64,000 nt of DNA from Siphonodentalium dalli (Eukaryota; Mollusca; Scaphopoda; Gadilida; Siphonodentaliidae). The notes under the pieces are model-generated. The model was not told the DNA's origin. It ran no database searches and saw only the letters and a program-made list of their open reading frames with translations. Below, piece by piece: positions 4,273 through 64,000 of this stretch. The stretch is taken from assembly GCA_032622095.1 (NCBI GenBank), contig CP136066.1:175767164-175831163 (forward strand), in the 5' to 3' direction. A program made the translations under genes and the position numbers. Each line of letters begins with the position of its first letter. Within the stretch, counting starts at the first letter, position 1.

Positions 4273-4752
4273 GCAGCGTGGACGGGTCATCGAGTGCGCT
4301 CAATTTGTAAACAAAGTTTTGTCAATAGTCGTTTTGGTCAAACTATCCATTTTTAGACCGGGACAGCAGATCCGAATAGTAGCTAAGATGTATTTAGATA
4401 GAATTATCAAAAGAATTTGACCGATCAGGGTAGATTTTAAGAGAATCAAGTGGAGAAATCTTGGTGATAATTCCAGAAAATAAAAATGGAGGAGAAACAC
4501 AATTAAACTACCACAATGCACTTCACTAAACTAGGGGTTCCCAATGGGTTACACATTATTTTCAGTCTATCAGATTATTTATATTTTCAACAACAAGTGA
4601 CTTTAAGTTTACAATTTCAGCCTGTCCTGACCCTATGGATACGATTTATCATATTTTCAAAAACGTATTATACACCAGTGCCGTTAACTTTACAATTTCA
4701 GCATATACGTGATTCTATTGGTACGATTGAGTAAGGTACAAAAAAAATTTCC

Positions 4753-12739: not shown

Positions 12740-14686
12740 ATGGCGTCCTCGTCACGAAGTCGGTGCAGTGAGGACTCACGTGAGCTATCTCGGTGTTATA
12801 ATCGGATTCTGCTACAAGGGTTTAGCAGCAGACAAATGGCTCGTCAGCCGACTGATCGTTATAAAATGACATTAGTGGGGAGCATGGCGAGCGGTGTGGA
12901 TATTGATGGAAGTGATCTAGATACTCTGATTGAACATCGAAACATAATAATAGATGAATCCAGTTTGAGATACCGACATGACCTCCCTTGTTATGTCCGG
13001 ATATCTACTGAGGGGTTAGCTGGGCTCGTACCAAGCATCCTCTTGGGTGACGGTAAATACGTGCTGGCTGATCCTATCAGAGACATGTGTGAAGAGATCT
13101 TTGGAAAAACTATGCATACTGATGGATTATCAAAGGTTGGTAAGGTACGCAATGGTCAACGCACCACCATTGACGTTGTTCCACAACTAAGAATAAGTAG
13201 AATACCACAGAAAGCACGTTTATTTTTCACACGAGACCGGTTATGGCCATCAGACGACATTATATCGCTAATTAGATCCGGTGAATTTCACATTACGGCA
13301 CGACCGGCTCCATCAGACCCGGACAGTGAGCACGATTTCTGTCTGTCTTTCGCTAAGACAGAAGTCGTGCTGTTGGGAACAATGTCAATTTACCAGATAC
13401 TCAGTATAAAGATTTTGAAGGGAATCGGACGCGTCATCGATATTGACCTGGGGGTGTTGACGTCCTACCATCTGAAGACGTCAGCTTTCTGGCATTTCGA
13501 GAAGACGGACGCTCGATTCTGGGAAAATGACTTGTCAGTAGTGGATATATTAAAGAGACTTGATTGGTATTTAAAAGAAAGATTCCTTCCTCATTATTTT
13601 GTTCCTGAAATGAACTTGCTGACTGGTGTCTCGGAATCTGATCTGATATATCTCCGCAGGCGTCTGTGGTCTTTTCTTGGGTTGTGTCTCATCACTGATG
13701 ATATCGCGGGAGTGACATCAACAAGGCTGCAATTCTCTGAAACATTAACAAACAGTCTACTCTCTGAATCAAACCCGGCTAGTGCGCAGACGGGTCATAT
13801 GTCTAACATTGGGAACATCCTAGACGCAGCAGAGGTCATGTATGGAACCGGGATTGTATCTCATGGCATGATACAACGAGTCTCCGCAGCTGTAAAGGCG
13901 AGGTGTTCAATCGATGGAGTCAGCCGCACGCATATAGACGCAGTTACACCATTGCTTACGTCATTTAATAAGATGGTTGATCTTTGGATGGGTTTTAGAC
14001 AACATGAATATATTCCATATGACATCTTTGTTAAATATATGTCAATAATTATGGATTCAAATAATGACCCTTTAGAAGAGTTCTTTGTGAGAACAGCGAC
14101 AGGTAAAAATAAAGGGGGCCAACGTGCTATCACAAGAGTGCGAAAATCAGAAAAATTAATTAATAAATGGTTGGATTTTGTCGATGATATCATTACCAAG
14201 TTAAAACAATACGGGAACACTGTTGTATGTGATATGTCGCATAAGTCACGCGTGAGCGGCAATCGGTGCGAGGAAAACGTCGACAAACTTCTCTATAAAA
14301 TTACCAAAGAGTTGCTAACGTTTGCAGTCGATCATATTGAAACGTTCAGTTATCCTCTCGATAATAATGACACCTATTCATTCAGGCCGGTGCCAGTCGG
14401 CCACTATCGGGCAAACATTCTCATATTGGAAAGCGTTGTCGATAGACTGTTCCTTAACGTCGAGTACGCTCTCATTACGAGCGGTCGGATCAATGCATCT
14501 CGTGTACCAGGTGATCAGACGGAAAGAATAAGGCGATCGATGCATGCTGCGAGTATTGAATATCGATGTGACGTGGCCCTCCACGCTTTAGAAGAGGTGA
14601 TTATTAAATTCGCTGTGTTGTGTTCTAAGTCAAGTGAGCATCAAGGATGGATGGACTTCATGGATATGAATCTCGATCACTCATAA
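12740..14686 (+). CDS. cGAS-like receptor (Mab-21-type nucleotidyltransferase), intact copy 1
   Basis: A single-exon 648-aa protein. Residues ~43-65 hold the nucleotidyltransferase signature LVGSMASG...GSDLD: the GS pair at 47-48 and acidic D59/D61. The third catalytic acid is D145 in TIDVVPQL. The Mab-21 helical lobe follows: SFAKTEVVLL (203-212), SYHLKTSAFWHFE (242-254), FLPHYFVPEMNLL (282-294). Known family members synthesise cyclic di- or oligonucleotide second messengers after sensing foreign nucleic acid and signal through STING. The ligand here cannot be read. All three acids are kept, so activity is plausible. The C-terminal ~320 residues have no recognised domain and make the protein longer than typical cGAS cores. 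The start is chosen from the long open frame and from the identical N-terminus (MASSSRSRCS) in the second gene. It is likely an innate immune sensor in a tandem family. Confidence 0.85.
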   Translation: MASSSRSRCSEDSRELSRCYNRILLQGFSSRQMARQPTDRYKMTLVGSMASGVDIDGSDLDTLIEHRNIIIDESSLRYRHDLPCYVRISTEGLAGLVPSILLGDGKYVLADPIRDMCEEIFGKTMHTDGLSKVGKVRNGQRTTIDVVPQLRISRIPQKARLFFTRDRLWPSDDIISLIRSGEFHITARPAPSDPDSEHDFCLSFAKTEVVLLGTMSIYQILSIKILKGIGRVIDIDLGVLTSYHLKTSAFWHFEKTDARFWENDLSVVDILKRLDWYLKERFLPHYFVPEMNLLTGVSESDLIYLRRRLWSFLGLCLITDDIAGVTSTRLQFSETLTNSLLSESNPASAQTGHMSNIGNILDAAEVMYGTGIVSHGMIQRVSAAVKARCSIDGVSRTHIDAVTPLLTSFNKMVDLWMGFRQHEYIPYDIFVKYMSIIMDSNNDPLEEFFVRTATGKNKGGQRAITRVRKSEKLINKWLDFVDDIITKLKQYGNTVVCDMSHKSRVSGNRCEENVDKLLYKITKELLTFAVDHIETFSYPLDNNDTYSFRPVPVGHYRANILILESVVDRLFLNVEYALITSGRINASRVPGDQTERIRRSMHAASIEYRCDVALHALEEVIIKFAVLCSKSSEHQGWMDFMDMNLDHS

Positions 14687-19649: not shown

Positions 19650-20650
19650 ATGACCTACTATATTTTACATAAGCAAGAGCCTGATTGTGTGACAGAAGAC
19701 AGCACAGTGTTACTGGCTAATCACACACAAATTATATAAGCGCTCTTTATTAGTTCCATATCAGGAATTCAGCAACAAAGAACGCTCTTTGTGTTTACCA
19801 TCATAATATAAACAAACACCAGGAAAGTAACTTTTTATGCTTTTGTTTACACAACAATGGTCAAACATATGACAATAACATACTGTTTATGCGATATTTC
19901 TTATTTGTATACGGCCAAAGTCTGTCTACATTTTAATATTCTTTCTGTTTGTGGCGGTTTTTGACGGGTGGAAATATTTTCAAAGCATACCCAACGCCAA
20001 GGCCTCCCGTACGTACCTTTAAAACGCATACAGTTTCGTTCATATATACCATGACAATAGCATAAACAGCATGATATCATAAAGATCTACTATATTTTAC
20101 CTAAGCAAGCTGAAGCAAGAGCCTGATTGGGTCACAGAGGACAGCACAATGCTATTGGCTAATCACACACAAATGATATAAACGCTCTTTATTAGTTCCA
20201 TATTAGGAATGCAGCAACAAATAACGTTCTTTATGTTTACCATCATAATATAAACACACACCTGGAAAGTAACGTTTTATGCTTTTGTTTACATAACAAT
20301 GGTCAACAACATGACAATAACATACTGTTTATGTTATATTTCTTATTTGTATACGAACAAAGTATATCTACATTTTAAAGACACGGGAGGCCGTGGAGGT
20401 GGGTATTCTGTTAAAATATTCATCTCCGTCAAAAACCGCCATAAACAGAAGGAATATTAAGATATAGACAGACTTTGTTCTTATGCCAATCAGAAATATG
20501 GCATAAACAGTATGTTATTGTCACGCCCCCCCCCCCCCCCAAGTTACATTTCCTGGCTTTTGTTTAGATCCGGATATGGGAAACATAAAGATCGTTATTT
20601 GTTACTGTTTTCCTGATATGGAAATAATAAAGAGCGTTTGTGTCATTTTA
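19650..20650. mobile_element. Nest of partial TTAA-type MITE copies
   Basis: Compared with the full copy at 48,147-48,640: 19,650-20,028 is a 5'-truncated forward copy ending ...CGTACCT|TTAA. 20,033-20,376 is a second forward piece that begins at the family's internal TTAAAACGCATAC point. 20,377-20,650 is an inverted piece. Both junctions lie at TTAA motifs. A 15-C run interrupts the inverted piece at 20,526-20,540. Confidence 0.7.
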
Positions 20651-25914: not shown

Positions 25915-27297
25915 CAAAAATGGCTAGTGAAATTTAATCCCATGAAAACAGAATCACTTTTAGTATCATGGAAAAATAACATAATCGTCCACCCTCCCCT
26001 GCAGATGTCGGACAAGGATATTGTAGAAGTCGAAACCCACAAACATTTAGGTCTTACTTTTAACAGAGACGATACGTGGAAAGATCATGTCACTGATATT
26101 GAAAATCGAGCCGCAAGTCGAATGTATATACTGAGGAAATATAAATTCATTCTGGACAGGAGAACACTTGAGCGTATATACTTGTCATACATCCGTCCAG
26201 TGTTGGAATATGCCTCCTCGGTATGGGGTAATTGCTCAGTTGAAAATTCAACCTCTCTGGAAGATATCCAATACGAGGCTGCTAGATTAGTCACGGGAGC
26301 AACTAGAAGCTGCAGCAAACAATCACTATTACGGGAAACCGGTTGGGACTCACTATCTAGCAGGAGAGAAAAAACTAAACTTGTGCAATTTTTTAAAATG
26401 ATTAGGAGAACCACGCCTCCTTACTTATATACTCTAGTTCCTATTGAATCTGGAAGTTTAACCAATTATAATTTCAGACAAAAGGGTCTCAGAACTCCCA
26501 GAGTTTACGCGACAAGATACGAAAATTCATTTCTTCCAGCTACCGTCAAGTTATGGAACAACCTTCCGCCAAAGGCGAAAGAATGTGAATCTGTCTCTGA
26601 CTTTAAGAATTTTCTTTTAACCGATCGAATTATCATACCGTCATATTATTATATAGCGCACCGAAGACCAAGCCAAATATACCACTGTCGCCTGCGAACA
26701 AACTGCAGTAACCTGAAATATGACCTGTTTTGCAATCATTTGAATAATAATCCATTTTGCGACTGTGGAGAATTAGAAACTGCTGAGCACTTCTTACTCC
26801 ACTGTCCAATATTCGAGCGTGAAAGAGTCCGTTATTTAGCCAATCTGAATGTGAACTTGGAAGTCAAAATATTACTGCATGGGTCCGTAGATATATCTTA
26901 TACCAAAAATGCCGACATATTCATTGCCGTTCAAAAGTTCATCGACGATACCAAACGATTTAACTGACATAAAATGGTTATGAACTGTAAAGCGTGAACC
27001 AAAAGCCTACATAAAACAAAAATATTGTGCTCTCGTATACTCAAGCATGCCAGAGGTGTGATTGTGGGTGAGGGGTTGACTCGCAGCGATTGGCAACGGG
27101 ATAGGTTGCGGTGCTTGTGGAACAGGCAATTCATCATTGAGACCCAATCAAACCATGATGCAATATATATACTAAGGAAATGGCCACCTATAAGCATTTG
27201 GCTTACTGCCAAATCCTTTTCTCTAATGTTAAATTGTTATCGTCCTTATATTATGTATTATATGTGCAATTCTTGAGAATAAAATATTGTTTACACT
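25915..27297 (+). mobile_element. 5'-truncated LINE insertion
   Basis: An 11-bp target duplication AACTGGAAGCT (25,904-25,914 and 27,298-27,308) brackets 1,383 bp that is absent from segment C. It begins within the RT domain and ends ...ATAAAATATTGTTTACACT without a long poly-A. This is a typical target-primed, 5'-truncated non-LTR retrotransposon. Confidence 0.85.
25921..26967 (+). pseudogene. LINE ORF2 C-terminal part (RT thumb plus zinc motif)
   Basis: The frame opens with WLVKFNPMKTE, the conserved W-x-x-KFNP-x-K block just after the catalytic FADD/YADD box of non-LTR RTs, followed by HKHLGLTF and a YIRPVLEYASSVW thumb block. A C-terminal cysteine-histidine motif follows: C-x-C-x8-H-x4-C in CDCGELETAEHFLLHCP. 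About 347 codons remain open, so insertion was recent. The catalytic palm, endonuclease and ORF1 are missing, so it cannot move by itself. There is no true initiation codon, because the frame starts at the truncation point. Confidence 0.85.
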
Positions 27298-32990: not shown

Positions 32991-32996
32991 CATGTT
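32991..32996. repeat. Target-site duplication, left (CATGTT)
   Basis: CATGTT directly precedes the palindrome. The same six bases follow it at 41,729-41,734. Uninterrupted MITE copies read AAACAGCATGTTATCATAAA (63,960s) or CATGCTATCAT (48,265), giving the empty site. Confidence 0.9.
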
Positions 32997-33019
32997 AGAA
33001 GAATAGCCGCCTCGTTACC

Positions 33020-33345
33020 TTCACATCTAAAAATAGAATCTTTGGGTCTAAAATTGGTTGTGGGTGTCTCGTTCGCGTCACATCTAAAAATAGAATCTTT
33101 GGGGGTCTAAAATTGGTTGTACTAAAATATTCCCAAAATTTCAAAACCCAAAAATTATTTTTCCAAAAAAAAAATTTCAAAACTTCCAAAATTTATTTTT
33201 CCAAAAAATTAAAAAACCCTAAAATTATTTTTCCAAAAAAAAAATTTTAAAACCCCAAAATTTCAAAAGAAAAAATTTCAAAACCCTCAAAATTATTTCT
33301 CTAAAAAAAAAAGTTTAAATAAAAAATTTATAACGAGTTTTCGGT
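33020..33345. repeat. Subterminal repeats of the left arm
   Basis: TCTAAAAATAGAATCTTTGG plus TCTAAAATTGGTTGT is present twice (33,025-33,121), followed by A/T-rich units of the type CCAAAATTATTTTTCCAAAA to 33,345. Mirrored at about 41,380-41,700. The minus-strand 64-codon frame here is built from these units and is not a gene. Confidence 0.7.
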
Positions 33346-33496
33346 TTCTGATAATCTCGATATTAAAAAATGTCGAATGTTAAATTATTTGCGTGTAATA
33401 TCTTTCGTTATTTTTTTTGTTCAACCAATGTTTCAATGTATTTATTAATCGATGTTTAGAAAATAGCTTTATTGGACATTGTGACCATCGATATGA

Positions 33497-33888
33497 ATGC
33501 ATACATTCCAGTGTTTATCGGACGCAGTTCATATAATTGTCATACCTGAAAATAGACACCATTAATTTTACATAAATAATAAAGAGCGTTTATTCTTTAC
33601 ACTCTCTACCCCAGAGGAAGTTATTGAGTATATGACAGGTGTGTATTATCGTGAATTATTGGAAGTATTGAGATGTACTATGTTGAATCACTAACGGTCG
33701 AAAATGGTAATGTGAAATTACAACCCTCCAGAATGAATTGTCATATTCGATGGAACATATTATGTACACGTAATCACACACGCGACATTGGTGGTAACAA
33801 TGTGTCTTTCACACCTTTGCTTTACCAAATGAATTCTATTATTTCCCCGGTCACAGTTATATGCTATTCAGAAAACATATCGATTTAA
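33497..33888 (+). pseudogene. Two overlapping small frames near the left end, first one stopped
   Basis: The left-arm counterpart of 40,837-41,228. The first frame begins at ATG 33,497 but meets TAA at 33,563-33,565, where the right arm has TAC. The second frame, 33,673-33,888 (71 codons), is open. They may be remnants of one gene with a frameshift or two small genes of the parental element. No family is recognised. Transcription would run toward the centre, convergent with the ATPase gene. Confidence 0.35.
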
Positions 33889-34104
33889 TGTCTGAACAAA
33901 CGGGTTAGTATCAATTAAGGTTGATAAACTGTGTCATTCACACGATAATTAGTTATCCAAAACATGCATACGACCAGGTCACTCAATAATAGAAATTGAT
34001 TCGGTGTCATTGTTATAACAACATTACGTAATAACCACTTATCACTCTATTCACACTTACGCTCATTTTGTATACCAAAAATTTCAATATAATGAAGATG
34101 ACGA

Positions 34105-34162
34105 AAAGTTACCTATAATTCTGCTGTGGTTAAGCCACAACAACAACAACAACAACAACACC

Positions 34163-34193
<31 letters not shown>

Positions 34194-34340
34194 GTCACCA
34201 AGCGACATAACATCCTGTTTTGATGATCCAATGGCCAATGTCCATGAAGATTTTATTTCCGATGCAAGTCATATTTCAGACTAACTCCTGAAAAGTTACC
34301 TATAATTCTGCTGAGGTTAAGCAGTCCATTATTTAGGGCA
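34105..34340 (+). pseudogene. Decayed partial duplicate of the ATPase gene 5' region (left arm)
   Basis: A CAA/CAC repeat (34,138-34,195) runs directly into sequence for the post-polyQ segment (PSDITSCFDDPMANVHEDF), then breaks at ATTTCCGATGCAAGTC. It is flanked by direct repeats of GAAAAGTTACCTATAATTCT (34,107 and 34,292), which also occur beside the central loop (37,262 inverse; 37,482). Orientation is opposite to the main ATPase gene of this arm. Mirrored at about 40,385-40,620. Confidence 0.7.
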
Positions 34341-34513
34341 TACCTGTATGTAGGCCTACCAGTGGATGAATAGTCTGCCGGAGAAGTACTGTGTAGACAG
34401 GTCTTGTCGGTAAGAGAGTCAGACGAGTAGTGAAGGCTCGGCTATTAAAACATAGTAATGCGATAGCGAACATCAAACGAGTCTGCGCACGCATATCTGT
34501 CAAATGATACAAG

Positions 34514-34646
34514 GGCAGTCATTGGTCAATTTATCCCCGGTGTCAGATCAGTACAATGGCAGTCATTGGTCAATTTATCCCCCGGTGTCAGCTCAGTACA
34601 ATAGCAGTCATTGGTCAATTTATCCCCGGTGTCAGCTCAGTACACA
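34514..34646. repeat. 44-45-bp tandem triplicate (left arm)
   Basis: GGCAGTCATTGGTCAATTTA...CAGTACAAT starts at 34,514, 34,558 and 34,602. Mirrored at about 40,080-40,212. Confidence 0.85.
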
Positions 34647-34681
34647 ATCGGCACGAAGCCGGAGGTCATAATTACTCTTAC

Positions 34682-35092
34682 GAATGAAGAGCGTTGAACA
34701 TATACGAAATTATTACACGAATGAACTGAAATTTATATTTCACATCTTACCAACAACAGATACAGACATAGTCATAGTGTTATACTATCTTACATGTACC
34801 CATGCTATGACATCATTCGAAGGGGCAATACACTCAAGGAGTTAAAGTGACACGAAACAAGGGACGTGATGTAATATTGGTGTATGAATCTTAAAGGAAC
34901 ACAAGACACTCTAAAGGGACACTCATTATGAAGGAATGTTAACAATACAAGCGCACGAATGAAGAGCGTTGAACATATACGAAATTACTACACGAATGAA
35001 CTGAAATTTATATTTCACATCTTACCAACAACAGATACAGACATAGTCATAGTGTTATATTATCTTACATGTACCCATGCTATGACATACTT
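34682..35092. repeat. Direct repeat, ~130-bp unit with 280-bp offset (left arm)
   Basis: GAATGAAGAGCGTTGAACAT through CATGCTATGACAT occurs at 34,684-34,812 and again at 34,964-35,092. Each copy is followed by a TTAAAGTGACACGA-type flank. Mirrored in the right arm at about 39,633-40,043. Confidence 0.85.
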
Positions 35093-35267
35093 AAAGGGGG
35101 ATAATGCACACACGGAGTGTGGAATGTTAAAGTGACACGAGGTAAGGGACGTTATGTAATATTGGTGTGTGAATATTAAAGGAGCATTCTCGCTATACAA
35201 ACCCCCCTCCCCACTTATAGATATATAACGAAGACGAGAATAACATGTTGATGAAGTTTATTGAAAT

Positions 35268-36807
35268 TTAATCATTGTCTGAATCTTCGACCGTTAGATT
35301 TACTTCTAAGAGTTTCTTGAATTTTCTCATCGCTTCATCTGCAGCCCATTCATTATTATATCCGCGTTTGGTCAGTTTGACCATTTTCTTCATGATCGTG
35401 TTATGTATGGGTGATGTTTTCAATCGATACTGGTATTCTATTAATCGTCTATAACTTTTGAGAAACAGAACAAACTCTGTGTCGATGGTATCCTCTTTTC
35501 CCGACATGCTCTCATCTCCCGAAATGCTCTCTTCTTCTTTCACATCATTGGTGACGCGTTTCATCATACTTTTGAATGTGTCCATCTCGTTGACACATCG
35601 CGCAGCTTTCTTAAGACCGAATACCGTTCTACTACCGACGACATTACCATCTTTTGAATCTGATAGCGTTCCCCGTTCATCTTCATCTGTATCTTCTCCG
35701 AAGAGAGTTGTTTTTGTCTCGGACATAGCTCCGTGTTCATCCGGGTCCTCAGTTAATTTTCGTTTTAACTTATTTTCTTGACACCAGTTTTTTACGTGTC
35801 TCTGAACATCATAATGATCTGCGAACAAAAGCCCGCATTCATTACAAGGGTACGACATGTCTTCTCGAATGTTTTGACGGTTCTTCTTATTAATTTCATC
35901 GAGCTCACCAGGTGGCCGTATGTCGTTAGTATAGTCATTATGTTGACCCTGGGGCACAATATAATTATATGTTATGCCCTTCTGTTGACCAGGGAGTTCT
36001 CTGTCATCGTATTTCATCGCATTCTGTTGACCCTGGGTCTCAGTGTCTTTTGTATGTTTTTTCATCCCATTCTGTTCATCTGGGTGTTCTCTGTCTTTTT
36101 GGAGATTATATTTCATGCCATTCCATTCACCCCTATGTTGGTTCGTGTCCTCTTTTAGTACATTCTGTCGCAGACGTAATGTGTCCGGTGTTGCGGCTTT
36201 TAAATCCACCAGTAGGTAACCGTACGGTTCACTCGTCGCTTCCGAAAACTCTCGAACCATACGCTGAGGACATTCAGGATACATCTGTCTTGATAATGTT
36301 GAAATTAATCCCTTGTCGATTGGGTTATTGAACAATACCAAATATTGACAATTTCGTCGTTGCGTTGGATCTTTGTTGTAGTAGAAATTCTGGTTCAAAC
36401 TTATCAAAGATAAGTTCAAATGGTGACTTCCTTCGGAATGCAAATCATTAACTCTCTGGTCTTTTGATGAAGTTTGCATCAAGTCATCGAGTATAACTAG
36501 ATTTTTATACCGGGGGTTGATAAGCGAATCCAAGTTTGCTGGTATTCCTCGTATAAAGTTGACCTGAGGGGTGACGGTATACTTTAATTCGTCATATAGG
36601 GGCTGCCAATATTTATAAAACCATATTATTCTGTCAGGTGCGGGTGATATTTTTGAGGCAGACTTTTGTAGTAAGGTTTTCACGAAGTATGTCTTACCAC
36701 AAGATGTCGGTCCACTTACACATGCCGTGAATGGATGCTTGAAAATAAAATCTTCATGGACATTGGCCATTGGATCATCAAAGCAGGATGTTATGTCGCT
36801 TGGTGGC

Positions 36808-36868
<61 letters not shown>

Positions 36869-36921
36869 GGGGGTGATGATACTGTTGTTGTTGTTGTTGT
36901 TGTTGTTGTGGCTGATGATAC

Positions 36922-36955
<34 letters not shown>

Positions 36956-37043
36956 CTGAAGGCGTGTGTTTAACTTTGATATGACGCTTCAAACTATCTT
37001 GCCAAGCATAGACACTTAAGCACTCTTCACATTGATACTTCAT
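35268..37043 (-). CDS. Zinc finger / polyglutamine / P-loop packaging-type ATPase, intact (left arm)
   Basis: 591 aa, starting near the centre and read outward. A C2H2 finger is at residues 5-26 (C5, C8, H21, H26). Interrupted polyglutamine follows at ~31-80. The ATPase domain is ~98-300, with Walker A GPTSCGKT (~111-118) and Walker B LVILDD (~182-187). Downstream blocks DRIIWFYKYWQPLYDEL, YLVLFNNP, RQMYP and PYGYLLVDLK match the FtsK/HerA-like packaging ATPase family of Polinton/adintovirus-type elements. A second finger of C2HC type (CNEC...H...C) is at about 400-425, then an acidic linker and a helical C-terminus with an HNTIMKKM...GYNNEWAADEA pattern. Such ATPases normally translocate DNA into capsids, but no capsid gene is seen here. 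The fusion of zinc fingers to the ATPase is notable. The start codon is supported by the identical start in the other arm. Confidence 0.8.
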
Positions 37044-37353
37044 TTAACTAGTTCAGGCTGTCGTTCACAACGTCTCTTAGTGTTGTTTGTACTGGATACA
37101 AATTTATCACATTAGCTACAATACAACCTACCTATCCAAATGTCAATGCAATTATGAGTGATTTCAATATGAACACTCTATTATATAGATATGTGTAACC
37201 TGGTGACTGACATGATGATACAGTTATGCACTAAATAATGGACTGCTTAACCACAGCAGAATTATAGGTAACTTTTCAGGAGTTATTCGGAAATATGGCT
37301 TGTTGCCATTCATCGGAAAGCTCTCGCCGCCGGCGGATGTTGTTGGCGGCGGC
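37044..37353. promoter_or_regulatory. Inner left arm: probable divergent promoter region
   Basis: About 310 bp between the ATPase start codon and the central loop, mirrored at 37,405-37,714. Both ATPase genes point outward, so their promoters must lie here or in the loop. No TATA box is assigned with confidence. Confidence 0.35.
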
Positions 37354-37460
37354 ATTGCGGTATTTTACTGCGGCGGCGGTGCCGCCGCCGCCGCCGCCGG
37401 CGCCGCCGCCGCCAACAACATCCGCCTGCGGCGAGAGCTTTCCGATGAATGGCAACAAGC
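37310..37460. repeat. Central GCC-rich hairpin core
   Basis: GCCATTCATCGGAAAGCTCT and its inverse bracket a GCC/GGC-rich centre. The unpaired loop is 37,354-37,404, itself containing GGCGGCGGTGCCGCCGCC, so the tip can pair further. This is the only strongly GC-rich stretch of the element. The proline/alanine/glycine-rich frames crossing it are artefacts of the repeat. Confidence 0.85.
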
Positions 37461-37714
37461 CATATTTCCGACTAACTCCTGAAAAGTTACCTATAATTCT
37501 GCTGTGGTTAAGCAGTCCATTATTTAGTGCATAACTGTATCATCATGTCAGTCACCAGGTTACACATATCTATATAATAGAGTGTTCATATTGAAATCAC
37601 TCATAATTGCATTGACATTTGGATAGGTAGGTTGTATTGTAGCTAATGTGATAAATTTGTATCCAGTACAAACAACACTAAGAGACGTTGTGAACGACAG
37701 CCTGAACTAGTTAA

Positions 37715-37877
37715 ATGAAGTATCAATGTGAAGAGTGCTTAAGTGTCTATGCTTGGCAAGATAGTTTGAAGCGTCATATCAAAGTTAAACACACGCCTTC
37801 AGAACAACAACAACAACAACAACAACAGTATCATCAGCCACAACAACAACAACAACAACAACAGTATCATCACCCCC

Positions 37878-37920
<43 letters not shown>

Positions 37921-39460
37921 GCCACCAAGCGACATAACATCCTGCTTTGATGATCCAATGGCCAATGTCCATGAAGATTTTATTTTCAAGCATCCATTCA
38001 CGGCATGTGTAAGTGGACCGACATCTTGTGGTAAGACATACTTCGTGAAAACCTTACTACAAAAGTCTGCCTCAAAAATATCACCCGCACCTGACAGAAT
38101 AATATGGTTTTATAAATATTGGCAGCCCCTATATGACGAATTAAAGTATACCGTCACCCCTCAGGTCAACTTTATACGAGGAATACCAGCAAACTTGGAT
38201 TCGCTTATCAACCCCCGGTATAAAAATCTAGTTATACTCGATGACTTGATGCAAACTTCATCAAAAGACCAGAGAGTTAATGATTTGCATTCCGAAGGAA
38301 GTCACCATTTGAACTTATCTTTGATAAGTTTGAACCAGAATTTCTACTACAACACAGATCCAACGCAACGACGAAATTGTCAATATTTGGTATTGTTCAA
38401 TAACCCAATCGACAAGGGATTAATTTCAACATTATCAAGACAGATGTATCCTGAATGTCCTCAGCGTATGGTTCGAGAGTTTTCGGAAGCGACGAGTGAA
38501 CCGTACGGTTACCTACTGGTGGATTTAAAAGCCGCAACACCGGACACATTACGTCTGCGACAGAATGTACTAAAAGAGGACACGAACTAACATAGGGGTG
38601 AATGGAATGGCATGAAATATAATCTCCAAAAAGACAGAGAACACCCAGATGAACAGAATGGGATGAAAAAACATACAAAAGACACTGAGACCCAGGGTCA
38701 ACAGAATGCGATGAAATACGATGACAGAGAACTCCCTGGTCAACAGAAGGGCATAACATATAATTATATTGTGCCCCAGGGTCAACATAATGACTATACT
38801 AACGACATACGGCCACCTGGTGAGCTCGATGAAATTAATAAGAAGAACCGTCAAAACATTCGAGAAGACATGTCGTACCCTTGTAATGAATGCGGGCTTT
38901 TGTTCGCAGATCATTATGATGTTCAGAGACACGTAAAAAACTGGTGTCAAGAAAATAAGTTAAAACGAAAATTAACTGAGGACCCGGATGAACACGGAGC
39001 TATGTCCGAGACAAAAACAACTCTCTTCGGAGAAGATACAGATGAAGATGAACGGGGAACGCTATCAGATTCAAAAGATGGTAATGTCGTCGGTAGTAGA
39101 ACGGTATTCGGTCTTAAGAAAGCTGCGCGATGTGTCAACGAGATGGACACATTCAAAAGTATGATGAAACGCGTCACCAATGATGTGAAAGAAGAAGAGA
39201 GCATTTCGGGAGATGAGAGCATGTCGGGAAAAGAGGATACCATCGACACAGAGTTTGTTCTGTTTCTCAAAAGTTATAGACGATTAATAGAATACCAGTA
39301 TCGATTGAAAACATCACCCATACATAACACGATCATGAAGAAAATGGTCAAACTGACCAAACGCGGATATAATAATGAATGGGCTGCAGATGAAGCGATG
39401 AGAAAATTCAAGAAACACTTAGAAGTAAATCTAACGGTCGAAGATTCAGACAATGATTAA
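37715..39460 (+). pseudogene. Right-arm copy of the zinc finger / ATPase gene, with a nonsense codon
   Basis: Mirror copy of the 591-aa gene. It is open from 37,715 to a TAA at 38,588-38,590 where the left arm has CAA, a single C-to-T change after codon 291. The frame then continues to 39,460. The break falls just after the ATPase domain, so a truncated protein would keep the N-terminal finger, a shorter polyglutamine tract and a complete P-loop domain. It would lose the second finger and C-terminal helices, which remain encoded downstream. Other differences from the left copy are few (K/T near DPTQRR, L/H near the C-terminus). Confidence 0.85.
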
Positions 39461-40534
39461 ATTTCAATAAACTTCATCAACATGTTATTCTCGTCTTCGT
39501 TATATATCTATAAGTGGGGAGGGGGGTTTGTATAGCGAGAATGCTCCTTTAATATTCACACACCAATATTACATAACGTCCCTTACCTCGTGTCACTTTA
39601 ACATTCCACACTCCGTGTGTGCATTATCCCCCTTTAAGTATGTCATAGCATGGGTACATGTAAGATAATATAACACTATGACTATGTCTGTATCTGTTGT
39701 TGGTAAGATGTGAAATATAAATTTCAGTTCATTCGTGTAGTAATTTCGTATATGTTCAACGCTCTTCATTCGTGCGCTTGTATTGTTAACATTCCTTCAT
39801 AATGAGTGTCCCTTTAGAGTGTCTTGTGTTCCTTTAAGATTCATACACCAATATTACATCACGTCCCTTGTTTCGTGTCACTTTAACTCCTTGAGTGTAT
39901 TGCCCCTTCGAATGATGTCATAGCATGGGTACATGTAAGATAGTATAACACTATGACTATGTCTGTATCTGTTGTTGGTAAGATGTGAAATATAAATTTC
40001 AGTTCATTCGTGTAATAATTTCGTATATGTTGAACGCTCTTCATTCGTAAGAGTAATTATGACCTCCGGCTTCGTGCCGATTGTGTACTGAGCTGACACC
40101 GGGGATAAATTGACCAATGACTGCTATTGTACTGAGCTGACACCGGGGGATAAATTGACCAATGACTGCCATTGTACTGATCTGACACCGGGGATAAATT
40201 GACCAATGACTGCCCTTGTATCCTTTGACAGATATGCGTGCGCAGACTCGTTTGATGTTCGCTATCGCATTACTATGTTTTAATAGCCGAGCCTTCACTA
40301 CTCGTCTGACTCTCTTACCGACAAGACCTGTCTACACAGTACTTCTCCGGCAGACTATTCATCCACTGGTAGGCCTACATACAGGTATGCCCTAAATAAT
40401 GGACTGCTTAACCTCAGCAGAATTATAGGTAACTTTTCAGGAGTTAGTCTGAAATGTGACTTGCATCGGAAATAAAATCTTCATGGACATTGGCCATTGG
40501 ATCATCAAAACAGGATGTTATGTCGCTTGGTGAC

Positions 40535-40566
<32 letters not shown>

Positions 40567-40836
40567 GTGTTGTTGTTGTTGTTGTTGTGGCTTAACCACA
40601 GCAGAATTATAGGTAACTTTTCGTCATCTTCATTATATTGAAATTTTTGGTATACAAAATGAGCGTAAGTGTGAATGGAGTGATAAGTGGTTATTACGTA
40701 ATGTTGTTATAACAATGACACCGAATCAATTTCTATTATTGAGTGACCTGGTCGTATGCATGTTTTGGATAACTAATTATCGTGTGAATGACACAGTTTA
40801 TCAACCTTAATTGATACTAACCCGTTTGTTCAGACA
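39461..40836. repeat. Right-arm non-coding repeats (mirror of 33,889-35,267)
   Basis: In order: direct repeats of the ~130-bp unit (39,633-39,763 and 39,913-40,043), the 44-bp triplicate (40,080-40,212), and the decayed ATPase-gene scrap with TTG repeats (40,478-40,600) between copies of the AGAATTATAGGTAACTTTTC module. The minus-strand 85-codon frame at 40,041 follows the triplicate. Confidence 0.8.
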
Positions 40837-41228
40837 TTAAATCGATATGTTTTCTGAATAGCATATAACTGTGACCGGGGAAATAATAGAATTCATTTGG
40901 TAAAGCAAAGGTGTGAAAGACACATTGTTACCACCAATGTCGCGTGTGTGATTACGTGTACATAATATGTTCCATCGAATATGACAATTCATTCTGGAGG
41001 GTTGTAATTTCACATTACCATTTTCGACCGTTAGTGATTCAACATAGTACATCTCAATACTTCCAATAATTCACGATAATACACACCTGTCATATACTCA
41101 ATAACTTCCTCTGGGGTAGAGAGTGTAAAGAATAAACGCTCTTTATTATTTATGTAAAAGTAATGGTGTCTATTTTCAGGTATGACAATTATATGAACTG
41201 CGTCCGATAAACACTGGAATGTATGCAT
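40837..41228 (-). CDS. Two overlapping small frames of unknown function (right arm)
   Basis: On the minus strand, 41,031-41,228 (65 codons) overlaps 40,837-41,052 (71 codons) by 22 bases in another frame. Both are open here, while the left arm has a stop in the first. The pair may be one frameshifted gene of the parental element. No domain is recognised, and a capsid-related origin is only a guess. Read inward, convergent with the ATPase gene. Confidence 0.35.
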
Positions 41229-41728
41229 TCATATCGATGGTCACAATGTCCAATAAAGCTATTTTCTAAACATCGATTAATAAATACATTGAAACATTGG
41301 TTGAACAAAAAAAATAACGAAAGATATTACACGCAAATAATTTAACATTCGACATTTTTTAATATCGAGATTATCAGAAACCGAAAACTCGTTATAAATT
41401 TTTTATTTAAACTTTTTTTTTTAGAGAAATAATTTTGAGGGTTTTGAAATTTTTTCTTTTGAAATTTTGGGGTTTTAAAATTTTTGTTTTGGAAAAATAA
41501 TTTTAGGGTTTTTAAATTTTTTGGAAAAATAAATTTTGGAAGTTTTGAAATTTTTTTTTTGGAAAAATAATTTTTGGGTTTTGAAATTTTGGGAATATTT
41601 TAGTACAACCAATTTTAGACCCCCAAAGATTCTATTTTTAGATGTGACGCGAACGAGACACCCACAACCAATTTTAGACCCAAAGATTCTATTTTTAGAT
41701 GTGAAGGTAACGAGGAGGCTATTCTTCT

Positions 41729-41734
41729 CATGTT
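41729..41734. repeat. Target-site duplication, right (CATGTT)
   Basis: Matches 32,991-32,996 exactly. The MITE sequence resumes at ATCATAAAGACC. Confidence 0.9.
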
Positions 41735-43255: not shown

Positions 43256-45232
43256 ATGGCGTCCTCGTCACGAAGTCGGTGCAGTGAGGACTCACGTGAG
43301 CTATCTCGGTGTTATAATCGGATTCTGCTACAAGGGTTTAGAAGCAGACAAACGGCACGTCAGTCGACTGATCGTTATACAATTACATTAGTGGGGAGCT
43401 TGGCGAGCGGTGTGGATATTGATGGAAGTGATAAAGATACTCTGATTGAACCTCGAAACATAATAATAGATGAATCCAGTTTGAGATACCGACATGACCT
43501 CCCGTGTTATGTCCGGATATCTACTGAGGGTTTAGCTGGGCTCGTACCAAGCATCCTCTTGGGTGACGGGGAATACGTGCTGGCTGATCCCATCAGAGAC
43601 ATGCGTGAAGAGATCTTTGGAAAAACTATAGAGGCTGATGGATTATCAAAGGTTGGTAAGATACTCGAAGGTCCATTCACCACAACCGACCTTGTTCCAC
43701 AACTAAAAATAAGTAGAATACCACAGACAGCACACTTATTTTCCACACGTGACCGGTCATGGCCGTCGGACCACATTATATCGCTAATTTGCTCTGGGGA
43801 ATTCCACCTTGCGGCACGACCTGCTCCATCAGACCCGGACAGTGGGCACGATTTCTGTCTGTCGTTCGCTAAGGCAGAAGTCGTGCTCTTGAGAACAATG
43901 TCAGTTTACCAGATACTCAGTATAAAGCTTTTGAAGATAATCGGACGCGTCATTAAGGGAGAGTTGACGTCCTACCATCTGAAAACGTCAGCTCTCTGGC
44001 ATTTCGAGCAGACGGACGCTCGATTCTGGGAAAATGACTTATCAGTGGTGGCTATATTAAAGAGACTTGATCAGTATTTAAAAGGAAGATTCCTGCCTCA
44101 TTATTTTGTTCCTGAAATGAACTTGTTGACTGGTGTCTCGGAATCTGATCTTATATATATCCGGATACGTCTGTGGTCTCTTCTCGGGTTGTTTATCATC
44201 ACTGATGATATCGCGGGAATGACACCACACACAAGGCTGAATCTCACATGTTTTATATTTGATCATTTAAGTAGACAACTCTCTGAAACAAAGCCGGCTA
44301 TCACGCAGACAGTTCATATGTCTCATATCGGGAACACCATAGAAGCAGCAGAGGTCATGTATGGGTCCGGGGTTGCATCCCATGACATGAAACAACGAGT
44401 ATCCACATCTGTATTGATGAGATTTTCAATCCATGCAATCAGACGCCAGCTTATAGACACAGTTAAATCATGGCTTACGTCAGTTAATAAGACGGTTGAT
44501 CTTTGGATGTATTCTAGACAACATAAATATATTTCATATGACGTCTTTGTTACATATATATCTATAATTATAGATTCAAATAAGAACTCTTTAGACGATT
44601 TCTTCGTGATGACATCGACAGGTTACAATACAGGGGGCCGTCGTGCTATCAGAAGAGCAGTGGGAAAATCAGAAAAAATAATGAAGAAATGGTTGGATTT
44701 TGTCGATGATATCATTACCAAGTTACAACCATACGGGAACATTGTTGCTGATCAAGTGTCACGTGATATATCACACAAGTCACGTGGTGACAGCCGCGTG
44801 AGCGGCAATCGCTGCGATGAAAATGTCGACCAACATTTCTATAAAATTACCAAAGAGTTGCTAACGTTTGCATTCGATCATATTGGAAAGTTCAGTTATC
44901 CTCTCGATAATGACACTTATTCCTTGAGACCGGTGCCAGTCGGCGACTTCGGTGGAAACATTGTCATATTAAATGATGTTATCGAGAGAATGTTCCTCAA
45001 CGTTGAGTATGCTCTTGTTATGTGCGCTCGGGTCAAGACATCTCGCGGATCATGTGATCAGACGGGAAGAATAAAGCGAACGATGAATCATGAGAGTCTA
45101 GAATATCGATGTTACTTGGCGTTGTTAGCTTTAATCGTGGTGCTGAGTGAATTCTACGTGTTGTGTTCTGTGTCAAGTGAGCATCACGGGTGGATGGAAT
45201 TCGTGGCCGCCACATTCCGCCGAGAGCATTGA
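43256..45232 (+). CDS. cGAS-like receptor (Mab-21-type nucleotidyltransferase), intact copy 2
   Basis: A single-exon 658-aa protein. The nucleotidyltransferase signature is LVGSLASG...GSDKD (GS 47-48, D59, D61), with the third acid D145 in TTTDLVPQL. The Mab-21 lobe is SFAKAEVVLL, SYHLKTSALWHFE and FLPHYFVPEMNLL. The predicted role is a cyclic-nucleotide-producing innate sensor, as for copy 1. The first ~130 residues are almost identical to copy 1. From ~330 onward the two diverge with many amino-acid changes and small indels. The last ~120 residues and the 3' flank resemble the fragment at 135-629 more than copy 1, so the gene looks recombinant. All catalytic acids are kept. Confidence 0.85.
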   Translation: MASSSRSRCSEDSRELSRCYNRILLQGFRSRQTARQSTDRYTITLVGSLASGVDIDGSDKDTLIEPRNIIIDESSLRYRHDLPCYVRISTEGLAGLVPSILLGDGEYVLADPIRDMREEIFGKTIEADGLSKVGKILEGPFTTTDLVPQLKISRIPQTAHLFSTRDRSWPSDHIISLICSGEFHLAARPAPSDPDSGHDFCLSFAKAEVVLLRTMSVYQILSIKLLKIIGRVIKGELTSYHLKTSALWHFEQTDARFWENDLSVVAILKRLDQYLKGRFLPHYFVPEMNLLTGVSESDLIYIRIRLWSLLGLFIITDDIAGMTPHTRLNLTCFIFDHLSRQLSETKPAITQTVHMSHIGNTIEAAEVMYGSGVASHDMKQRVSTSVLMRFSIHAIRRQLIDTVKSWLTSVNKTVDLWMYSRQHKYISYDVFVTYISIIIDSNKNSLDDFFVMTSTGYNTGGRRAIRRAVGKSEKIMKKWLDFVDDIITKLQPYGNIVADQVSRDISHKSRGDSRVSGNRCDENVDQHFYKITKELLTFAFDHIGKFSYPLDNDTYSLRPVPVGDFGGNIVILNDVIERMFLNVEYALVMCARVKTSRGSCDQTGRIKRTMNHESLEYRCYLALLALIVVLSEFYVLCSVSSEHHGWMEFVAATFRREH

Positions 45233-46186: not shown

Positions 46187-47603
46187 ATGAAAAGGTGCAC
46201 TATTGTGCCTATCTATAAAGGAGCGCCAAAGCCCATGCAAAACCCCAACAGCTATCGTGCAATCACGCTCCTACCAGTCACATATACGTTGTTCGAAATT
46301 ATTATCCTTCGGAGACTACAGTAGAGCTGATTCTTCAAGCATTTTCCGACCATCTTTGTAGAATGGCTTCCAGGAGAGGGTTCTGTCACTGCATATGAGC
46401 TCCAACATAGTGTTTATTATGCAAAGGCAAATAACTCACGTCTCTGTGTGGCCTTTCTTGATTCCAAGAAGGCATTCGACTGTGTATGGCACGAAGGATT
46501 GATTTATAAATTATATGCAAAAGGAGTAAGAGGTCACATGCTCTTATTACTAAACAATATGTATTCTGATATAGAAAGCCAAGTACTTTACAATGGCTTC
46601 CTGTCAAATTATTTTCGCATTGAGCAAGGGACCAGACAGGGAGTTACAATATCTCCCTTTTTATATCTTATTTTCATTGATGGCCTCATAAGATCATTGT
46701 CTGATTCTCCAGATGGTATGCATGTAAGTTGTTTGTCCTGTTCGTGCCCGACGACAGCCGATGATATCACCGTTTCTTCGCTAACTGAAGGTGGTCTTCA
46801 CAGATTACTGACCATGTGCCATTTATACAGTTTGACATGGCGCTTCTCCTTCTCACATGAAAAGAGCAAAGTAGTCGTCTTTAATACATCAAGTAACCGC
46901 GAAAATATAGACTCCCAATCATGGAGCCTAGGATCGGGCCACATAAGCCAAACGAAACAAGTGACACACCTTGGTATAATCCAGGAGTCCAGCAGTTAAA
47001 ATATCCCGAATGTTGAAAGGGCATCAGATCTTATCCGCAAATGCTATTTTTCAGCTTGCCGCTCACCGATTTCCAAGGAATTTAGTCCTATGACCAACCT
47101 AAAGATTTTTAAACACGTTGTCATTCCAAAAGCCCTATATGGCGCCGAAATGTGGTGGAACATGACAGGTTCAACCTATCACAGACTCAATATATAAACC
47201 TTGAAAAGCATACAGAATGTATCTCAAAAATGTGCAGCAAATGGGTACAAGAAGCAGCACGATCCTCTCGCTCTCCTTGCTCGGGATGCAACCCATTGAG
47301 TACGTAGTCGATCGGAGGAAGTTGCTCTTTCTGGGCTCACTAATACACTTACCGAGCAAACATAGAAAAGCTTTGGAAATATTTCTGTTCAGCCTGCACA
47401 GCCTCCTAATCTATAATCGCCCAGCGACAGGTTTTCTGGAAGAAATATCTAGAATTCTCACAAAATATGGCATGTATGACATTCTTCCCAACTATGCAAG
47501 AACTGGGTCCTTTCGAAAATATGATAAAAGTAAAATTGACTCAGTTGAGTATTCTCTAGAAAACTTTAATCTCCCGTCGATACGGTCTGGAGTGAATAGT
47601 TAA
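46187..47603 (+). pseudogene. LINE reverse-transcriptase pseudogene
   Basis: RT blocks in order across several frames: IVPIYKG and SYRAITLLPV (46,190-46,280), VAFLDSKKAFDCVWH with the first catalytic aspartate (about 46,450-46,495), RQGVTISPFLY (about 46,632), and the catalytic box, which reads TADD instead of FADD/YADD (about 46,760). THLG lies at about 46,965, then a C-terminal region to 47,603. A TAG at 46,322-46,324 and frameshifts before 46,448 and after 46,999 break it. Belongs to a different LINE lineage from 25,915-27,297. Confidence 0.8.
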
Positions 47604-48142: not shown

Positions 48143-48146
48143 TTAA

Positions 48147-48640
48147 AGGCACGTGAGGCCTTAGTTGTCGAAAATATTCATATTTGTTCCAATCTCCGAA
48201 AACATAAAAACATTAAAACGCATACAGTTTCGTTCATATATACCATGACCATCGCGTAAACAGCATGCTATCATAAAGACCTACTATATTTTACACAAGG
48301 AAGAGCCTGATTGTGTTACAGAAGACAGCACAGTGTTACTGTCTGATCACACACAAATGATATAAACGCTCTTTATTAGTTCCATGTCAGGAATTCAGCA
48401 GCAAAGAACGCTCTTTATGTTTACCATCCTAATATAAACAAACACCAGGAAAGTAACTTGTTATGCTTTTGTTTACATAACAATGGTCAAACATATGACA
48501 ATAACATACTGTTTATGCGATATTTCTTATTTGTATACGGACAAAGTCTGTCTACATTTTAATATTCTTACTGTTTGTGGCGGTTTTTGACCGGTGGAAA
48601 TATTTTCACAGCATACCCACCGCCAAGGCCAACCGTACCT
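48147..48640 (+). mobile_element. Complete TTAA-type MITE
   Basis: 494 bp between exact TTAA duplications (48,143-48,146 and 48,641-48,644). The ends AGGCACGTGAGGCCTT and the inverse of AGGTACGGTTGGCCTT match at 12 of 16 positions. It contains two ACGCTCTTTAT boxes and the CATGCTATCAT site where the palindrome is inserted in the copy at 32,874. No coding capacity. TTAA targeting suggests piggyBac-type mobilisation. Confidence 0.8.
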
Positions 48641-62290: not shown

Positions 62291-62296
62291 GATGCA

Positions 62297-63844
62297 AGAG
62301 ATAACTCATCACAATTATGATAATGAGAAACAATGAGACCTACACAGTACTTAATAAGAGATAACTCATCACAATTATGATAATGAGAATCAATGAGACC
62401 TACACAGTACTTAATAAGAGATAACTCGTCACAATTATGATAATGAGAATCAATGAGACATACACAATACTTAATAAGAGATTACTCGTCACAATTATTA
62501 TGATAGGAATCAATGAGACCTACACAATACTTAATAAGAGATAACTCATCACAATTATAATAATGAGAATCAATGAGACCTACACAATACTTAATAAGAG
62601 ATAACTCATCACATTATGATAATGAGAATCAATGAGACCAACACAATACTTAATAAAAAATAACTCGTCACAATTATTATGATAGGAATCAATGAGACTT
62701 ACACAATACTTAATAAGAGATAACTCATCACAATTATGATAATGAGAATCAATGAGACATACACAATACTTAATAAGAGATAACTCGTCACAATTATAAT
62801 AATGGGAATCAACAAGACCTACACAATACTTAATAAGAGATCACTCATCACAATTATGATAATGAGAATCAATGAGATATACAAAATACTTAATAAGAGT
62901 TAACTCATCACAATTATGATAACGAGAATCAATGAGACCTACATAATACTTAATAAGAGAGATAACTCATCACAATTATGATAATGAGAATCAATCAGAC
63001 ATACACAATACTTAATAAGAGATAACTCATCACAATTATGATAATGATAATCAATGAGACATACACAATACTTAATAAGAGATAACTCATCACAATTATG
63101 ATAACGAGAATCAATGAGACCTACATAATACTTAATAAGAGATAACTCATCACAATTATGATAATGAGAAGCAATGAGATCTACACAATACTTAATAAGA
63201 GACAACTCATCACAATTATAATAATGAGAATCAATGAAACCAACACAATACTTAATAAGAGATAACTCATCACAATTATGATAATGAGAATCAATGAGAC
63301 ATACACAATACTCAATAAGAGATAACTCGTCACAATTATGATAATGGGAATAAACCAGACATACACAATACTTAATAAGAGATAACTCATCACAATTATG
63401 ATAATGAGAATCAATGAGACCTACACAATACTTACTAAGAGATAACTCGTCACAATTATAATAATGGGAATCAACAAGACCTACACAATACTTAATAAGA
63501 GATAACTCATCACAATTATGAGAATCAATGAGACCTACATAATACTTAATAAGAGATAACTCGTCACAATTATGATAATGAGAATCAATGAGACCTACAC
63601 AATACTTAATAAGAGATAACTCATCACAATTATGATAATGGGAATCAACCAGACCTACACAATACTTAATAGAGGTAACTCGTCACAATTATGATAATGA
63701 GAATCAATGAGACCCACACAATACTTAATAAGAGATAACTCATCACAATTATAATAATGGGAATCAACAAGACCTACACAATACTTAATAAGAGATAACT
63801 CGACACAATTATGATAATGGGAATCAACCAGACCTACACAATAC
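62297..63844. repeat. 60-bp minisatellite, ~26 units
   Basis: Unit AATAAGAGATAACTCATCAC AATTATGATAATGAGAATCA ATGAGACCTACACAATACTT, with point variants and a few shortened units. There are no non-repeat spacers, so it is not a CRISPR-like array. Open frames through it on the minus strand are a product of the period being a multiple of three. Confidence 0.95.
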
Positions 63845-63848
63845 TTAA

Positions 63849-64000
63849 AGGCACGTGAGGCCTTAGTTGTCGAAAATATTCATATTTGTTCTAATCACCG
63901 TAAACAGAAAAACATTAAAAGGCATACAGTTTCGTTAAAATATACCATGACCATCACGTAAACAGCATGTTATCATAAAGACCTACTATATTTTACCTAA
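63849..64000 (+). mobile_element. TTAA-type MITE, cut by the window end
   Basis: Begins AGGCACGTGAGGCCTTAG immediately after a TTAA (63,845-63,848) that belongs to the minisatellite unit. Collinear with 48,147-48,300. It carries the intact CATGTTATCAT site. Confidence 0.85.

Follow-up and report, generated by a model that had tools for sequence, protein, structure and literature searches.

The window analysed here, 64,000 nucleotides from the genome of the scaphopod Siphonodentalium dalli (C6:175767164-175831163 in an assembly of 2.23 Gb and 9 contigs), contains a mobile element of 8,732 bp that is built as one palindrome and is bounded by copies of CATGTT (32991-41734 of the window). Our reading, to which we assign a probability of roughly three in four, is that this element belongs to a family of non-autonomous Polinton (Maverick) satellites whose genome is one long inverted repeat and which would be copied via a hairpin. 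By alignment, the element agrees in its ends, its 6-bp duplication and its terminal repeat with full-length Polintons of this genome, which encode PolB and integrase, and, judged from their sequences, the palindromes among the loci tested lack genes for polymerase and integrase. The element is a non-autonomous Polinton derivative, and is neither an autonomous Polinton nor a cut-and-paste foldback transposon: perfect 6-bp duplications border 20 of 20 insertions of the family, the terminal repeat is common to a same-genome Polinton with PolB and integrase, and the PolB, retroviral-type integrase, and major capsid and protease that mark an autonomous Polinton were not found in the window element.

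Layout of the element and its insertion site

The features of the element, and of the uninterrupted host-repeat copies used for comparison, are as follows.

32991-32996, no strand: left target-site duplication, CATGTT (sequence and empty-site comparison)
32997-37353, forward: left palindrome arm, 4,357 nt (arm alignment)
32997-34061, forward: Polinton terminal inverted repeat, arm bases 1-1065, beginning AGAAGAATAG, 94% identical to the Polinton at C5:48339249-48356317
34103-34349, reverse: composite inverted relic made of centre-proximal pieces (arm 4249-4281, 3747-3868 and 4222-4306), mirrored in the right arm
34680-35186, forward: direct duplication of about 230 nt (arm 1684-1905 versus 1959-2190, 88%), in both arms
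35268-37043, reverse: intact ATPase frame, 591 aa, with Walker A GPTSCGKT at residues 111-118
37044-37336, reverse: centre-proximal 293 nt upstream of the ATPase frame, also held by other right arms
37354-37404, no strand: central loop of 51 nt, a shortened hairpin module with half of stem A and hairpin B, hairpin C and the other stem-A half being missing
37405-41728, reverse: right palindrome arm, 4,324 nt, inverted copy with 14 substitutions and indels only in triplet runs
37715-39460, forward: mirror ATPase copy of the right arm, with an in-frame stop ending at 38590
40664-41728, reverse: right-end terminal repeat, placed via the arm alignment, its outer 294 nt matched directly
41729-41734, no strand: right target-site duplication, CATGTT (sequence and empty-site comparison)
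48143-48469, forward: empty site, host repeat uninterrupted (CATGCT)
63845-63998, forward: empty site, host repeat uninterrupted (CATGTT)

Aligned with MAFFT, the two arms around the GC-rich loop are 99.7% identical (4,310 matches and 14 substitutions in 4,324 compared bases), and all 33 gap columns lie inside CAA/TTG triplet runs; the 14 differences look scattered along the arm. The flanks are part of a dispersed host repeat and, when joined, match its uninterrupted copies at 94% (63845-63998, with the exact CATGTT at the insertion point), 92% (48143-48469, with CATGCT there) and 87% over the part present (20019-20285). A preliminary description of this DNA had reported near-identical inverted arms around a 51-nt loop, together with CATGTT at both ends and empty sites, and these observations stand. 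Its further statement that the terminal repeat is the whole element holds in that the inverted repeat spans the element; the Polinton repeat itself is confined to the outer 1,065 nt of each arm, and the rest is mirrored payload, about 3.3 kb per arm with one gene. The relic at 34103-34349 is an old rearrangement that was copied to both arms.

Full-length Polintons with the same ends

The outer 1,065 bases of the window arm are 94% identical to the terminal repeat of a first Polinton of about 17 kb (C5:48339249-48356317; duplication ATAATT), and the 295-nt tips of this Polinton and of the palindrome agree at 98-99%. It encodes PolB in a 917-aa frame (PF03175, E=1.6e-51), an integrase (rve, E=4.1e-15) with a chromodomain, an adenovirus-type protease just under the cut-off (E 6e-4), and an ATPase frame with weak Pfam matches only, below the cut-off. 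From their position and from what is known of such elements, we take further frames to be capsid genes; the 420-aa frame presumed to encode the major capsid had no Pfam match. Its terminal repeats of 965 and 178 nt are 98-99% alike, the left one being split by an insert. A second Polinton of the 16-17 kb class (C2:79678743-79694893; duplication TACAAC) is about 99% identical to the first over 8 kb, with its integrase region in two frames, and the window arm matches its terminal repeat at 94% from base 72, the outer part (71%) being that of another subfamily. These finds bear out the proposed assignment to the Polinton/Maverick group and supply the full-length relatives with the same ends, polymerase B and integrase that had been suggested as a check. 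On this sequence evidence the two full-length Polintons are likely helpers of the palindromes.

The name 'hairpin Polinton', proposed earlier for a non-autonomous element, likewise fits the gene content. No match to PolB, integrase, protease or the presumed major capsid was found in the window element or in the palindromic loci among L010-L035, and tblastn with the PolB of L024, run against L010-L036 and the window element, matched only the full-length pieces. Beyond the terminal repeat, the Polinton pieces L024, L025 and L026 contained no match to a palindrome arm. A relative (64-72%) of a helper 110-aa frame, which adjoins the presumed capsid genes, occurs in L013, L016, L017/L018, L028/L030 and L033, with a short piece of its neighbour in L028/L030 and L033.

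A family of palindromic insertions

A search of the assembly with the terminal 300 nt gave 1,807 first-look candidates, 40 of which were scored, and the family is therefore larger than counted here. Of the 40 scored ends, 3 come from two full-length Polintons, 1 from a partial tandem copy and 36 from 21 palindromic-type places, among which L017 and L018 are one insertion and L034 was read at its right end only. The 19 insertions read at both ends (the window, L010-L017, L019-L023, L027, L028/L030, L029, L033 and L035) measure 4,921-9,896 nt, with a median of 8,645 nt and 16 of the 19 within 7.4-9.9 kb; a twentieth, L057, retrieved via the central module alone, is an 8,628-bp palindrome. All 20 have perfect 6-bp duplications, no two alike as written (CATGTT, GCAAAG, GTTATT, TATGTA, GATAGC, ACTACT, GTTAAT, CGCAGG, GTCATG, GTTGAC, TACGGT, CACATG, TAGAAA, TCTGTG, TCCATC, AATTAG, GGCGTT, AACATG, TCCATG and, at L057, GTTGTA), and AGAAGAATAG-type tips, the right tip being a few bases short in L035 and changed at one base in L020. 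The duplications of the window and L033 are mutual reverse complements, and their flanks differ. Fifteen of the 20 are palindromic over nearly their full length, among them L014, L027 and L035 with 199, 283 and 501 gap columns and L013, L028 and L033 with central spacers of 342, 195 and 134 nt, while part of one arm or of the centre has been lost or altered in L011, L012, L015, L019 and L029. L021 is a 5.4-kb short form with its centre inside the ATPase gene. The expectation that further copies would carry other 6-bp duplications was thus confirmed 19 times over.

Because 19 further related insertions with perfect 6-bp duplications exist in the same assembly, a chance origin of the window palindrome is excluded. 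Long palindromes are also a known type of artefact, arising in assembly or from a palindromic read with a missed adapter, but here the flanks on the two sides differ, the duplications are perfect, an empty site exists, the arms disagree at 14 positions and the family comprises 20 independent insertions, which makes such an origin scarcely credible. A cut-and-paste foldback transposon of the Tc4/FB type that had captured a Polinton ATPase is nearly as hard to credit: whole-element palindromes with short loops are known among foldback elements, but this explanation fails on the ends, which match a Polinton with PolB and integrase at 94% over the 1,065-nt repeat and at 98-99% over the 295-nt tip, as well as on the 6-bp duplications (20 of 20) and on a Pfam scan of three window frames that contained no transposase domain.

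Several places show local irregularities. L017 (C1:221900759-221910046) and L018 (C1:221939133-221948424) are the same palindromic insertion in mirror orientation, about 29 kb apart and with flanks swapped, and represent either a larger inverted chromosomal duplication or an assembly fault. L032 (C3:168698536) is a partial tandem palindromic copy directly before the full L020 (C3:168703534), with an identical left flank. L011 (C5:167930485-167936275) has a complete module and a full left arm, its right arm being reduced to little beyond the terminal repeat; this one-sided form may have arisen by deletion or may represent an older state. The arms of L010 contain tandem repeats and several near-identical block copies, mirrored on both sides, and its ATPase is reduced to a short remnant.

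The central hairpin module

A complete module of 85-109 nt occupies eight of the 19 centres (L011, L014, L015, L016, L017, L019, L023 and L027). It comprises a stem A (CATTGCGGTATTTTACTGC...), a hairpin B (GGCGGCGGTG...) and a hairpin C (GGGGTCCGCC...), bordered by GGC/GCC runs. Six centres hold a partial module (window, L010, L020, L022, L028 and L035), and that of L033 holds B/C-like sequence only. The predicted fold is a three-way junction; of the modules tested, two complete ones have z of -8.6 and -10.5 and the shortened one of the window has -2.6; the longer module of L014 has a different predicted fold when taken alone. With L014 set aside, the other seven of the eight complete modules have 97.1% of their 273 pair cells paired, a value reached by 27 of 500 shuffles, and mean column identity is 91%, about the same as in the terminal repeats.

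With at most 2 mismatches allowed, the assembly contains 1,023 occurrences of a 22-nt half-site and none of its reversed control. The first 100 half-site places, all mismatch-free and on two contigs, form 54 clusters, 24 of which have a facing pair; scaled up from these 100 places, a rough extrapolation gives about 550 loci in the genome, 246 of them with a facing pair. We read 1.6 kb around the first 20 of the 24 facing pairs. All 20 sampled modules match family arms over 750-1,574 bases, and 17 lie in sequence that is palindromic over at least 1,485 of 1,601 nt, the other three (L042, L049 and L050) being palindromic over only 361-753 nt. The idea that the module is a free-standing repeat found no support in this sample of complete modules: none of the 20 lies outside family sequence, and for 17 the surrounding palindrome fills the 1.6 kb.

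These centres bear on the possibility that each palindrome is newly made, by fold-back or inverted dimerisation of an asymmetric Polinton before insertion, and is a dead-end by-product. Fold-back products are expected of protein-primed replicons, and such an origin would account for the near-identical arms within each element and for the L021 centre inside the ATPase gene. The latter is explained equally well by a deletion in an existing palindrome, and complete modules are common to eight of the 19 elements with partial ones in six more; the window, L034 and L035 have the same kind of shortened centre and flanks; and the helper pieces L024, L025 and L026 contain neither payload nor module (L036 was checked for the module only). 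We therefore consider repeated new formation unlikely. A fold-back birth of the first palindrome, as the preliminary description proposed, is plausible, and the copies seen would descend mainly as palindromes, and not by repeated fold-backs of a full-length Polinton, because the family centre is inherited.

The A-B-C layout of the module is also that described for the ends of adeno-associated virus (AAV) in a portion of PMC11575299, and it lends some colour to a parvovirus-type rolling-hairpin element in which a Rep-like nickase would act at the central T-shaped hairpin and the palindrome would be a head-to-head dimer. Against this, no Rep/NS1 domain was detected with Pfam in the three window frames scanned, the ends and the insertion are Polinton-like, and bidnaviruses, described as parvovirus-Polinton hybrids, have no hairpin ends according to the part of PMC4061559 available to us. 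Such an element is very improbable as the explanation of this family.

Symmetry between the arms

The arms of an element differ by a median of 0.40% (range 0.18-0.92, n=15 elements; the 0.92% of L014 comes from a partial alignment, MAFFT giving 16 in 4,472), whereas comparison of left arms between elements gives a median difference of 3.01% (0.85-5.66; 105 pairs), a median of half of the longer arm lying in matching blocks. When whole arms are compared, the arms of all 15 elements are closer to their own partner than to the arms of the others. In a tree of terminal repeats (37 rows) no foreign insertion falls between the two arms of any insertion, with the caveats that L013 and L016 do not resolve, that the arms of L015 are identical and that the tree is weak at many of its inner forks. 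The rows of L017 and L018, being those of a single insertion, are intermixed. For two short inner segments, 11 of 14 and 22 of 26 rows have their own other arm as nearest or joint nearest, and the window segment 37044-37336 shows 0.7-1.4% mismatch to the seven other right arms, out of 14 examined, that cover at least 70% of it. The arms are mosaics, with the same blocks in varying number and place and a divergence from the window that differs by block, and the block arrangements are mirrored in both arms of an element; a rearrangement of one arm is therefore passed on to its partner no later than the moment of insertion. Because the centres are shared and the own arm is nearest over whole arms, the alignments indicate, in the sense of an inherited palindromic layout, that palindromes propagate as palindromes.

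Post-insertion gene conversion between chromosomal inverted repeats, as in sex-chromosome palindromes, would also yield arms that are closer within than between elements. This explanation sits poorly with the apparent scatter of the 14 differences along the window arm, with the rearrangements mirrored in both arms (the repeated blocks of L010, the relics of the window), and with the terminal repeats of an ordinary Polinton in this genome, which are equally alike at 98-99%. As the general cause of arm identity we judge it improbable.

The ATPase gene

The 591-aa product has N-terminal and internal C2H2-like zinc fingers and a poly-Q stretch. Pfam matched it to Pox_A32 (E 1.2e-05; 25.4 bits, the cut-off being 22.8) and, just under the cut-off, to C2H2 fingers (E 4.8e-05); an A32/FtsK-type packaging ATPase, a mark of Polinton membership, is thus present in the window element. 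It has 191 relatives among 5.8 billion proteins, and among the matches listed (120 of the 191) those with animal names come from bivalves, for example Pecten, Mizuhopecten, Mytilus, Pinctada, Mya and Solemya, which by itself would make a mollusc the probable host. Among ten relatives examined with Pfam, gene models continue into an integrase core (P0064), a chromodomain (P0049, P0056, P0086 and P0104) or an adenovirus-type protease (P0069), and four have no such join. On a mussel contig filed under a Bathymodiolus bacterial symbiont (JACCHT010000018.1, L001), a Polinton polymerase B adjoins ATPase pieces; this contig, the one confirmed match among 29 pattern matches in a scan of prokaryote genome contigs, is probably host DNA inside the metagenome-assembled genome of the symbiont. 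On the evidence of these relatives, whose models run into rve, chromodomain and protease, and of the mussel contig with PolB beside it, the window gene is a Polinton packaging ATPase. Among IMG/VR viral contigs no ATPase relative was confirmed in single-sequence and alignment searches and the terminal 26-mer had no match, and the 12 matches up to E 1 among solved structures were to zinc fingers and low-complexity sequence, none to the ATPase domain.

The ATPase frames are open in seven of eight copies compared, the eighth having two stops; the window right-arm copy, with one stop, is outside these eight. Values for the ratio of non-synonymous to synonymous substitution (dN/dS) between elements are 0.15-0.63. 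L019 is a mosaic, with an ATPase core 0.5% from the window and other blocks up to 7.4%, so that its comparison with the window mixes histories, and the dN/dS of 1.5 between the arms of L022, on 7 changes, is uninformative. Strong selection on the gene was upheld only partly, given seven of eight open frames and dN/dS below 1 but a mosaic L019; the open frames and the values below 1 between elements weakly suggest past selection.

Other features of the window

Outside the element, two long related frames at 12740-14686 and 43256-45232 (648 and 658 aa), with a third fragment at 135-629, may resemble Mab-21/cGLR-type proteins. A 60-nt tandem repeat of 26 copies (62296-63848) abuts one host-repeat copy, and the frames at 25927-26967 and 46448-46999 are putative pieces of reverse transcriptase genes.

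A proposed hairpin cycle for Polinton satellites

We propose that a helper Polinton would supply in trans both integrase and a PolB that starts from a protein primer at the terminal repeat. Strand displacement in the course of such synthesis would release a single strand, and this self-complementary strand would snap into a hairpin, about 4.3 kb long, in which the open end would rebuild a double-stranded origin and the central module would form the turn. Synthesis starting at the open end may then pass round the turn, restoring the 8.7-kb palindrome for insertion by the integrase. While the arms are paired in the hairpin, mismatch repair or the copying of one arm would equalise them in every cycle, so that differences between arms would postdate insertion, as with long terminal repeats (LTRs); the near-identical terminal repeats of an ordinary Polinton may reflect the same equalising, limited there to 1 kb. 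As for the founder, a guess that fits is fold-back of a strand, either nascent or displaced, at inverted GGC/GCC runs, after which the strand would have used its own arm as template. Shorter forms such as the 5.4-kb L021 may stem from later losses at the centre.

Several points weigh against this scheme. The module is absent from the centres of L012, L013, L021 and L029, and since it is also B/C-like in L033 and shortened in six others it appears to be dispensable or easily lost. Special constraint on the module was not borne out, its conservation not being clearly above that of the terminal repeats, and covariation is slight, with three of 39 pairs changed on both sides in the seven modules (7 of 500 shuffles). 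The module sample required both half-sites, and so lies apart from the 30 of 54 clusters with no facing pair. The ATPases of helper and palindrome are only 31% identical, and the payload would therefore come from another Polinton lineage, a source that was not found among the full-length Polintons identified. The inner segments include rows, 3 of 14 and 4 of 26, in which some other arm is closer than the own one, each time by one base, and conversion between arms after insertion could likewise keep them alike. The hairpin cycle itself is read from sequence, and not from a replication intermediate, transcript or particle.

A broader proposal, which we put forward tentatively and hold to be somewhat short of an even chance, is that these elements are satellite replicons of a class of their own, with a hairpin genome complementary to itself. 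Its open end would be a Polinton origin and its closed end an AAV-like three-way hairpin that serves as a built-in turn-around; there would, by extrapolation, probably be hundreds of copies in one animal genome, propagated and perhaps packaged by the helper. The median length of 8,645 nt in 19 elements, about half that of the 17-kb helper, is as would be expected if the capsid held two copies or one unfolded dimer. Ideas on how Polintons replicate appear to rest so far chiefly on their gene content; a large family of palindromes that occur in nature and carry Polinton ends would preserve a record of a stage in which a single strand anneals to itself, and would allow the replication model to be tested in an animal. 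Palindromes of 8-9 kb that are near-perfect, a type of sequence noted for its instability (PMC7999016), persist at the 20 places examined, and by extrapolation probably at hundreds, in one genome. The distance between the arms of one insertion would serve as an LTR-like clock for palindromic insertions.

Comparison with known systems

In the part of the literature searched, outside subscription journals and Repbase, we found no palindromic Polinton. The foldback transposons Tc4 and FB share with the palindromes two long arms, a short loop and a non-autonomous state, whereas the palindromes have Polinton ends, 6-bp duplications and a coding payload; Tc4 is about one fifth as long. Adenovirus-like protein-primed replicons yield palindromic defective genomes as passing by-products, and these have the same terminal origin at both ends and a self-complementary strand, whereas the palindrome family is inherited and integrates.

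In AAV and other parvoviruses, a head-to-head duplex is joined at a hairpin. The predicted fold of the module resembles the AAV end, described in a section of PMC11575299 as a three-way hairpin in which a stem A carries two arms, B and C; this is a likeness of form, with no claim of descent. Unlike it, the hairpin of the palindromes is central in an integrated element and shortened in the window, the outer ends are those of a Polinton, and no Rep was seen in the three window frames scanned. If the broader proposal is true, the palindromes would stand to Polintons as AAV stands to its adenovirus helper, this state having been arrived at from protein-primed replication, and would be a natural parallel to self-complementary AAV genomes. 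Bidnaviruses similarly link a Polinton polymerase with small single-strand replicons but, as far as the consulted text of PMC4061559 goes, have no hairpins and carry their own PolB and capsid genes.

The closest comparison remains that with Polintons themselves (portions of PMC2836005, PMC2871265, PMC4938981 and PMC6431247 give further background). Vertebrate Mavericks are given, in the sections of PMC8097293 at hand, as 12.7-24.6 kb long with terminal repeats of 46-1,447 bp (mean 402), 6-bp duplications and (AG)3 or (AGT)2 ends. The palindromes resemble such elements in their 6-bp duplication, AG-beginning ends, long terminal repeat and packaging ATPase, with a 16-17 kb helper in the same genome, and differ in having no polymerase, integrase, protease or presumed major capsid, and in possessing an inverted repeat that spans the whole element and a central module.

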